This document shows, in pieces, positions 29,067 to 30,914 of a stretch of DNA of 64,000 nt. Under the pieces are notes generated by a model. That model was not told the origin of the DNA, did no database searches, and worked only from the letters and a program-made list of their open reading frames with translations. Position 1 is the first letter of the stretch. Every line of letters starts with the position of its first letter. The DNA comes from Ilyobacter polytropus DSM 2926 (GTDB lineage Bacteria > Fusobacteriota > Fusobacteriia > Fusobacteriales > Fusobacteriaceae). Location: the NCBI RefSeq assembly GCF_000165505.1, contig NC_014633.1, positions 620,001-684,000 of the forward strand, written 5' to 3'. The translations under genes and the position numbers were made by a program.

Positions 29067-29909
29067 CTAACTTGAAAAATCAAGATTTTTTTTAAAAATA
29101 ATTTTTGAGTTTTTCCCAAAAATGGATACTTCGCCATCTATGAGTTCACTTTCCGTAATAGGACTTTCCACATAAATTTCCTCTGTTAAATTAAATTTCA
29201 AATTTTTTAAATGAGTCTTGAAGTTTCTAACAATATTAATAGTGTCACCCTCTATAAATTCACCATTTTTGATGTTTATATTAATTTTACTTTCTATTGG
29301 TTTTTCAAGCATCAATTGATAAATAAGATCCACTTCATAAGAATTTTTTAATACTTTAGTGAATTTTTCATTGGGTGTTATTTTTTCCTCATTACAAATA
29401 AAATTATATTTATTAAGAGTGTCTAAAACCTTTTGTATTTTAAATCTTTCAATTTTATTTTCTAAAGTTACAGATGCAGATAGATAACCTATGTTAAACT
29501 CAAGTTTTTCACCTGAAAAAAGATTCACAAAAAACTTACAAACCTCTATAGATCTTTTTACAGAAAGAGTTTCAGATATGGAATAAGCTAAATATCTATC
29601 AGTGGATATTACCTTATTATTATCCTTTGATACTTTTCCTTCAAATATAATCTTGCATTCTCTATTTTTAACTTCAAAATAATTGACTCCATTGGATTTT
29701 AAAAACTTCAGGGTAAAATTCAAAAGTTTAGAATTCCCACATATAATATCAACTTTTCCTATAGTCGTTATTTTTTCTTTCATGTTAAATTCTGGAATAT
29801 TTGACCTTGAAATTGGAAATTTTATATTTTGATTGAATTCTGACTGCATTTCAAAATAAGTTTTTACAACACCACCAAAATCTTCATCTATTATGATCTC
29901 TTTTAACAA
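29067..29909 (-). CDS. Unknown protein, possibly the C-terminal half of the SIR2-like protein
   Basis: A 280-residue frame with no family I recognise: Lys/Glu/Asn/Ile-rich, with alternating short strands and a helical centre (IERFKIQKVLDTLNKYNF). The only nearby start is a TTG at 29909 behind a weak agga; no ATG or GTG lies near the front. The same frame is open upstream for ~90 nt more, through the A9 tract at 29976-29984 at the end of the SIR2 ORF. A -1 shift on that tract would join the two into a protein of roughly 575 residues. Either an independent downstream gene or one frameshifted gene. Confidence 0.6.
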   Translation of the reverse strand: MLKEIIIDEDFGGVVKTYFEMQSEFNQNIKFPISRSNIPEFNMKEKITTIGKVDIICGNSKLLNFTLKFLKSNGVNYFEVKNRECKIIFEGKVSKDNNKVISTDRYLAYSISETLSVKRSIEVCKFFVNLFSGEKLEFNIGYLSASVTLENKIERFKIQKVLDTLNKYNFICNEEKITPNEKFTKVLKNSYEVDLIYQLMLEKPIESKININIKNGEFIEGDTINIVRNFKTHLKNLKFNLTEEIYVESPITESELIDGEVSIFGKNSKIIFKKNLDFSS

Positions 29910-29965
29910 AGGTTTCCTAGGTTCTTTTTCCAGTGAAAAAAGTCTTGGATTCTCATCATCAGCTG

Positions 29966-30799
29966 TTACCTGAACTTTTTTTTTACTGACAACTCTTGAG
30001 GGGTGTCAGTAGTTTCAAAAATATGCTGTTTTTCTATCAAATATTTTTTCAGTTCATTTAAAAATTCAATTTCATTTTGTTTTAAGAGCTTTATCTCATT
30101 GGAATTCAGCCAATTAATTGTTTCTGTATTTATAATAGAGGAAGATGTTACAAAATAGGCATTTGGTTTTGAATCACCTAATTTATTATATACAAAAGAT
30201 AAAATCTCTCTTGTATCGGGATCCTCTAAGTCATAACCAATAAATAAAAGAAGTTTCCCTTTCAGTTCACGTTTCAGATTTTCAAAAAGAGGACTATAAA
30301 GTGTCAATAATTTTAACTTTCTGAAATCCTGTTTTGTAACAAGCATTTTATCCATGTGTTCAAAATCCCCATTTATTTTGTAAAGTCTAGGTAAGTCAGA
30401 TTCTACTTCACCTTCATTCTGTATATCTACCTTAAAGATATCAGGCCCATAGGAATTTTCAATAAGAGTATCAAAATTTGTTGTTACAACTGCATCAATA
30501 AAGGGAGATTTTGGAAACAAATAGAGAAGATCAGAGGTTGCCCTTGTATTCGAATAAGAGTTCTTTAACTTGTTAAGAAGCTTCAATTTGCTTCCTGTCA
30601 CGCTGTCTAAATAAACTTGACACACCTCAGCTAAAGAGTTGGTGTCAGTAACCTCTAACTTTGAATACTTATCCAAATCTTCATATATAAGCTTAGCTAA
30701 CTCTCTTTTGCTGGGATAACCCATCAATTTTCCTAAAATATCTCCTATCCATAATACAATATTTTCCCCGTCTCGTAATCTATTTATAAAATTTGTCAT
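29966..30799 (-). CDS. SIR2-like domain protein with degenerate motifs
   Basis: A 277-residue protein resembling the SIR2_2/SIR2-like domain common in bacterial defence genes. Retained: TTNFDTLIE (Asn108, Asp110) and the C-terminal FIGYDLEDPDTREIL Rossmann segment (from ~187). Changed: the NAD-loop GAGxS is IGDILGK (residues 18-24), and the usual catalytic His of the LHG motif is Asn143 in YKINGDF. It may therefore be a non-enzymatic or altered NAD-binding protein. Start after acaaggagtaaatt. Located alone between glnN and lon with the ORF at 29067-29909, consistent with an inserted accessory unit. Confidence 0.75.
   Translation of the reverse strand: MTNFINRLRDGENIVLWIGDILGKLMGYPSKRELAKLIYEDLDKYSKLEVTDTNSLAEVCQVYLDSVTGSKLKLLNKLKNSYSNTRATSDLLYLFPKSPFIDAVVTTNFDTLIENSYGPDIFKVDIQNEGEVESDLPRLYKINGDFEHMDKMLVTKQDFRKLKLLTLYSPLFENLKRELKGKLLLFIGYDLEDPDTREILSFVYNKLGDSKPNAYFVTSSSIINTETINWLNSNEIKLLKQNEIEFLNELKKYLIEKQHIFETTDTPQELSVKKKFR
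29975..29984 (-). other. A9 tract / A AAA AAG slippery sequence at the SIR2 ORF end
   Basis: The minus strand reads nine A then G (29984 down to 29975). In the SIR2 frame this contains the heptamer A AAA AAG, the same as the dnaX -1 frameshift site, three codons before the stop. A -1 shift here continues into the 29067-29909 frame. No clear downstream hairpin was found. Confidence 0.55.
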
Positions 30800-30888
30800 A
30801 ATTTACTCCTTGTAAATATTAATCATTTCTTAGCTTAGTATACCCTATTAATACCCATTTCACAACCTTAAAAAGCAAAGAAAATAAA

Positions 30889-30914
30889 ATCCCCCTGCCT
30901 TTGCAGACAGGGGC
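30889..30914 (-). terminator. Terminator of lon
   Basis: Minus-strand stem with arms cccctg/cagggg and flanking pairs, followed by a T-rich tail just after the lon stop. Confidence 0.8.

Follow-up and report, generated by a model that had tools for sequence, protein, structure and literature searches.

A conserved -1 frame transition, probably read by dnaX-type frameshifting, joins a SIR2-like domain to a C-terminal domain without known family in Ilyobacter polytropus and its relatives

Introduction

Among the described bacterial systems, the closest to the locus presented here is dnaX, in which the slippery heptamer A_AAA_AAG is soon followed by a stop codon and gives rise to two isoforms (tau and gamma) with a common N-terminal part. 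To our knowledge, well-supported frameshifting in non-mobile bacterial chromosomal genes is rare. A C-terminal region is appended by a frameshift in csoS2 of carboxysomes and in orfA/orfB of the IS3 family, and a short form made in the zero frame, as would be the case here, has also been reported for the dnaX of a few bacteria (PMC5009743). On the protein side, the closest relative is ThsA, which has a SIR2-type NADase fold. Cleavage of NAD+ by ThsA depends on both Asn112 and His152, and the H152A change also disturbs oligomerisation (PMC7272460).

In this work, we describe a locus from a window of 64,000 nucleotides, the whole stretch analysed (NC_014633.1, positions 620,001 to 684,000), of Ilyobacter polytropus DSM 2926. 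A conserved -1 transition joins a pseudo-sirtuin to a domain without known family; the kind of recoding is known, the case is new, and the protein family is apparently undescribed. This gene was not found in the literature consulted, in which the GeneTack survey spans only four Fusobacteria genomes and has no mention of SIR2 in its main text.

Results

Architecture of the locus

The locus is situated on the minus strand of chromosome II, to which all features below belong. ORF1 (29966..30799) encodes a SIR2-like domain protein of 277 aa with an ATG start (Pfam SIR2_2, PF13289, E 3.8e-22), the predicted short isoform. Just upstream, a promoter-like TTGTGA-17-TATACT (30837..30865) was identified as a consensus match only, and a terminator-like hairpin 3' of lon (30892..30913) separates ORF1 from that gene. 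The 3' end of ORF1 reads GTA AAA AAA AAG TTC AGG TAA. It contains the heptamer A_AAA_AAG in the ORF1 frame (29975..29981), formed by the 3' part of an A9 run (29984..29976) and the G at 29975, and the TAA that would end the short isoform (29966..29968) lies two sense codons past the heptamer, rather than three codons after the tract as stated in the sequence-only reading.

ORF2, the open -1 frame that encodes the C-terminal domain (29067..30005, 312 codons plus stop), opens 21 nt 5' of the A run and ends at 29067. The coordinates and frames bear out the earlier description of a SIR2 ORF with an open -1 frame at A AAA AAG, as well as the lack of a near ATG or GTG in ORF2, none being located before +116 past the ORF1 stop. 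A TTG (29907..29909) is the sole possible near start and was judged not to be real, as it has no counterpart in the sister species G042. A -1 shift at 29981..29975, with one base read twice, would produce a predicted long isoform of 577 aa (29067..30799) with the predicted trans-frame peptide ..SVKKKVQVTADDENPR, and the short form would end in ..KKKFR. The A9-G pattern is present at 62 sites in the AT-rich Ilyobacter genome. Being this common, the run proves nothing by itself, and the case rests on the relatives.

Distribution and conservation of the frame transition

The searched set comprised 98 Fusobacteriota genomes, from which the loci were fetched and the frame relation was worked out for each locus. 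Relatives of ORF1, some of them general SIR2 proteins, were present in 60 of these genomes, and homologues of ORF2 in 50, all within the family of Ilyobacter. Separate frames for the SIR2 and C-terminal parts were observed in 32 genomes from 8 genera, and the relation was -1 in every case (32/32). An in-frame heptamer, A_AAA_AAG or A_AAA_AAA, was found at the junction in 28 of the 32 genomes, with the A_AAA_AAA variant in G053, G032 and G035. The junctions of G038 and G039 carry CAA_AAA_CAG, followed by a strong hairpin. In these 28 genomes, the end of ORF1 follows the heptamer by 6 to 10 nt, and when every relative that has a run is taken, the distance from slip site to stop is 6-12 nt.

The A run varies from A6 to A9 across genera, and the -1 relation stays constant in all 32 genomes. 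Runs of A9 were found in all three species of the Ilyobacter genus and in G028/G029, and most members have A6 only (GGA AAA AAG, AGA AAA AAG), with one more A in GAA AAA AAG. In the flanking genes of the same loci, the background was 0.00055 per in-frame codon for A_AAA_AAG and 0.0035 for A_AAA_AAR, and a chance heptamer within about six codons before the stop is expected in roughly 2% of genes or fewer. Set against the rate of 0.00055 per codon, a junction heptamer in 28/32 genomes indicates that the arrangement is not due to chance. A tblastn search with ORF2 gave no match in the phage collection and, among plasmids, only an F. vincentii record. A contig pattern scan with one short pattern returned Cetobacterium and Fusobacterium matches only, which does not imply absence beyond the phylum.

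No clear slippery run was recognised at the junctions of G016 (F. gastrosuis), G017 (same genus) and the F. vincentii record. In these three loci (L109, L106 and L124:4012-5768, respectively) the -1 layout is kept, ORF1 ends in TAT GCC stop, and a strong hairpin of varying sequence lies 1-5 nt past the ORF1 stop (GGTGAGGAC/GTCCTCACC and equivalents). Compared by eye, neither a hop nor a P-site slip nor a non-standard start fits all three of these junctions. The F. gastrosuis locus appears at both ends of contig NZ_LT607734.1 (G016:C1:14000-15732 and G016:C1:1799063-1800795), probably due to an untrimmed overlap of the circular chromosome. The 2.1-Mb F. vincentii record (L124, NZ_CP084075.1), labelled as plasmid pSB055A, bears these genes of chromosomal type and resembles a chromosome with a wrong label. 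Furthermore, an early stop breaks the SIR2 part near a contig end in G021:C47:27110-27481 (L110), which is possibly a decayed or broken copy.

Stimulatory signals around the slip site

SD-like motifs and their distances were taken from a published list (PMC4066793). A motif at a listed distance was present at 17 of 30 slip sites, compared with 12.3% at control positions within these genes, a descriptive comparison only, as the genomes are related. In nine Cetobacterium species, GAGG is located exactly 10 nt upstream of the heptamer. In the ten species of genus g5, a stem-loop begins 7 nt past the heptamer and spans the ORF1 stop codon; the heptamer-to-stem distance cited for known signals is 5-8 nt. 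RNAalifold predicted 8 pairs in the g5 stem; at two of them (columns 19-59 and 22-56) both partners have changed, and these compensatory changes comprise G-C to A-U in five species and U-A to A-U in one. For an 11-pair version, the covariation score was attained in 1 of 500 shuffles, and all slid registers scored lower. The G-C/A-U change (columns 19-59) probably represents one event, a single split between two subclades, in a stem that is also coding.

Strong hairpins were observed in genera g7 and g4 as well. In Ilyobacter and its two sister species, no listed SD motif was found upstream and no unusual hairpin downstream; both kinds of stimulator are optional in dnaX-type signals. An Rfam search returned nothing at gathering score.

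Selection and natural in-frame fusions

The dN/dS of ORF2 was 0.10-0.31 in five groups of close species, with 0.05-0.13 for ORF1, and 0.13-0.16 within the Ilyobacter genus, while the wrong frame of the same DNA gave 0.51-1.32. As judged from these ratios, ORF2 is under purifying selection, and its values below those of the wrong frame indicate that the long open -1 frames are not a product of chance.

A single uninterrupted ORF joining both parts, from 538 to 1126 aa, was identified in 14 further genomes. The search for an unshifted fusion among the relatives yielded that of Cetobacterium sp. 2A (G003), whose junction LKKKALSVTSD closely resembles the -1 product GKKALSVTPD predicted for the neighbouring genus. 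At the level of sequence, this fusion shows where the joint lies, and the trans-frame junction peptide is kept as KK[VA]xxV[VIT]S. The AlphaFold2 model of the fusion consists of a SIR2-like domain (1-257), a disordered segment over the joint (257-281) and the C-terminal domain (284-537). In the SIR2 tree, most lineages are shifted and the fused state has to be explained by 5 changes, of which well-supported branches force at least 4. An old frameshift with several later fusions is the simplest history on this tree, in which the root is unsure and the branches are long. The short isoform may be dispensable in several of the lineages with in-frame fusions.

In Cetobacterium sp. 2A (G003, L064), an A10 run is kept at the fusion joint, where a -1 shift would hit a stop within 6-8 codons; a short product may thus still be made in this species, with reversed polarity. 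In the other fused lineages, the in-frame heptamers fall within lysine-rich linkers or the SIR2 domain itself, and no meaning was attached to them.

The SIR2-like and C-terminal domains

By sequence, the SIR2-like domain is nearest to ThsA (profile E 8e-12). In structure comparison, the SIR2 domain of the Cetobacterium sp. 2A fusion matched the ThsA fold with Z 22.7 (2.8 A over 250 residues), with DSR2, KomC and Avs5 close behind. The position of the catalytic His is occupied by N, L, F, M or Y, a replacement observed in 32/32 rows of alignment A1 and 31/31 of A4; inspection by eye gave the same result for the remaining ones of the 46 members. Additionally, the catalytic Asn is changed to D or S in 10 of 32 members. 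Going by what is established for sirtuins, no NADase activity is expected of the domain, which would probably serve in nucleotide binding or assembly. The PADLOC ThsA profile matches the SIR2-like ORF of Ilyobacter with E 3.1e-24, and ThsA profiles match 14 of the 32 family members at 1e-5 or better even though the catalytic His is absent. These matches are a likely source of false Thoeris calls.

The confidently folded part of the C-terminal domain (29070..29915, from residue 31 of the open frame) was modelled by AlphaFold2 with a mean pLDDT of 87 and a pTM of 0.80. Searches with Pfam and NCBIfam (ORF2 and 46 relatives) and with PADLOC (ORF2) revealed no shared family, and Foldseek returned nothing below 1e-3. 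A SLOG domain gave no Pfam match in this region, and ThsA was not among its fold matches. A PH-like identity, seen in several rows with Z up to 3.8 over model residues 71-176, was too weak and was not taken as evidence.

Gene neighbourhood

In Ilyobacter, the neighbouring genes are lon and glnA, and the alarmone synthetase gene lies at another place of this replicon. Among genera g2-g7, the gene that follows usually encodes a co-directional RelA_SpoT-domain protein of ~260 aa (Pfam 6.6e-19), and its ATG overlaps the stop of the fusion in one fused clade. Many relatives also have, upstream and in divergent orientation, a cardiolipin-synthase-like gene. Within Fusobacteriota, the RelA_SpoT synthetase was found only in the family of Ilyobacter; in a survey, the small synthetase of Fusobacteria is listed under the name fpRel (PMC3153485), which may be this gene.

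The apparent operon with a RelA/SpoT-domain alarmone synthetase, the commonest context, hints at a regulatory function close to the stringent response. More speculatively, a mix of SIR2-only and SIR2-plus-C-terminal subunits, set by the frameshift, might form a nucleotide-sensing assembly that controls the synthetase of the same operon, an idea to which we give a low probability. If true, recoding would set the stoichiometry of a stringent-response regulator in Fusobacteria.

Discussion

We propose, with a probability of roughly 0.9 as estimated from the comparative sequence evidence, that the two frames are read by dnaX-type programmed -1 frameshifting, giving a SIR2-only and a SIR2-plus-C-terminal-domain isoform. 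Some ribosomes would finish the SIR2-like domain, translate two or three more codons and stop, which would produce the short isoform. Others, on reaching A_AAA_AAG, would move back by one base and read on in the -1 frame, generating a long isoform composed of the SIR2-like domain, a disordered linker and the C-terminal domain, the latter being produced solely in this form. The isoform ratio would be set by the frameshift signal, as for tau and gamma of dnaX, and the isoforms would presumably co-assemble through the SIR2-like domain. We infer the occurrence of slippage, its efficiency and the function of both isoforms. Programmed frameshifting was among the explanations that the sequence-only reading had offered, and it is now strongly supported by the -1 layout in 32 genomes, the junction heptamer in 28/32 and the stimulators in some genera.

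The same long protein could be obtained if RNA polymerase added an A on the A run and the changed messages were translated normally. Bacterial RNA polymerase slips efficiently on nine As (PMC5009743), the three Ilyobacter-genus species and G028/G029 have runs of this length, and the in-frame junction of G003 has A10. However, most members have only A6, while the marks of ribosomal shifting (in-frame heptamer, stem-loop and SD-like motif) are kept, and as the general explanation transcriptional slippage is unlikely. It could contribute in the A9 species: in Ilyobacter, with A9 and without a recognisable stimulator, it could make, or help to make, the same products. Ribosomal -1 shifting is taken as the mechanism of the family, since the runs of most relatives are short and several are accompanied by ribosome-type stimulators, and a share is left to transcription in the A9 species. 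It is very improbable that ORF2 is an independent gene whose own start, TTG or another, is used by re-initiation or coupling. The Ilyobacter TTG at 29909 (+56 past the stop) is preceded by AGGA, and in G030 and G038 an ATG accompanied by an SD-like motif is found close to the stop; the Ilyobacter TTG, however, is not kept in both sister species (it is missing from G042), and near-start positions differ among the three sisters. No near ATG, GTG or TTG is conserved, the majority of members have no start that ORF2 could use, many are start-less for hundreds of bases (in G028, the first start lies 863 nt in), and separate translation would leave no reason for keeping the heptamer. The natural fusions, like the conserved junction peptide, suggest that what is conserved is a single polypeptide.

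Phase variation and a single-base mutation had also been put forward. In the former, the length of the A run would toggle the long protein, and A9 runs are indeed mutable. The -1 relation nevertheless holds in all 32 genomes although genera differ in run length (A6 to A9), short runs predominate, and A9 is shared by the three sisters; together with the purifying selection on ORF2, this contradicts phase variation, which is scarcely conceivable as the explanation. The latter would turn the locus into a mutated or wrongly sequenced gene of ~577 residues, or a pseudogene. Homopolymers are error-prone and some 454 data were used in the genome project, but the genome is finished and was corrected with 125x Illumina coverage (PMC3035301). 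The single frame relation in 32 genomes and the purifying selection on both halves contradict this explanation, to which we assign practically no weight.

Regarding function, the sequence-only reading had suggested an undescribed phage-defence unit, that is, a SIR2 effector similar to ThsA of Thoeris or to DSR proteins with its dosage set by the frameshift. The structural neighbours ThsA, DSR2, KomC and Avs5 and the PADLOC ThsA match agree with such an effector. Nevertheless, the catalytic His is lost in all members and the Asn is replaced in roughly a third, and in ThsA a mutation of either residue abolishes NAD+ cleavage (PMC7272460). The gene has a family-wide distribution with conserved, housekeeping-type neighbours, no defence partner adjoins it, and the PADLOC matches of other neighbour genes are generic paralogue matches. 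The defence proposal is consequently unsupported, and we regard it as improbable.

Programmed frameshifting at this locus would add a case with deep conservation, found in one family of bacteria from the gut, the mouth, fish and sediment. Gene callers split the gene into two ORFs, and what the short isoform does can be tested directly with the unshifted fusions of sister lineages. The combination of a sirtuin-like domain lacking the His with an unclassified domain, often beside an alarmone synthetase, is one that defence scans can mistake for Thoeris ThsA.

Compared with ThsA, the protein shares the SIR2-type fold and differs in the missing catalytic His, in a GAG motif changed to GDx and in having no adjoining ThsB (TIR) gene. 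Fold scores for DSR2, other SIR2 defence proteins and FAM118 sirtuins reach Z 14-21, versus ~13.7 for the classical sirtuins listed; from DSR2 and FAM118 it differs by the loss of catalytic residues and by another C-terminal architecture, and from classical sirtuin deacylases by the absence of the catalytic His and of a GAGxS-type motif. Unlike the IS3-family orfA/orfB and csoS2, the present gene is not mobile, has no transposase and does not encode a carboxysome protein. In relation to dnaX, the gene is unrelated, the domain added is without known family, and the stimulators vary by genus, with none recognised in Ilyobacter. Nevertheless, it would share with dnaX the heptamer and the two-isoform plan, together with the SD-like GAGG 10 nt upstream (here in Cetobacterium) and the downstream stem-loop (here in genus g5).
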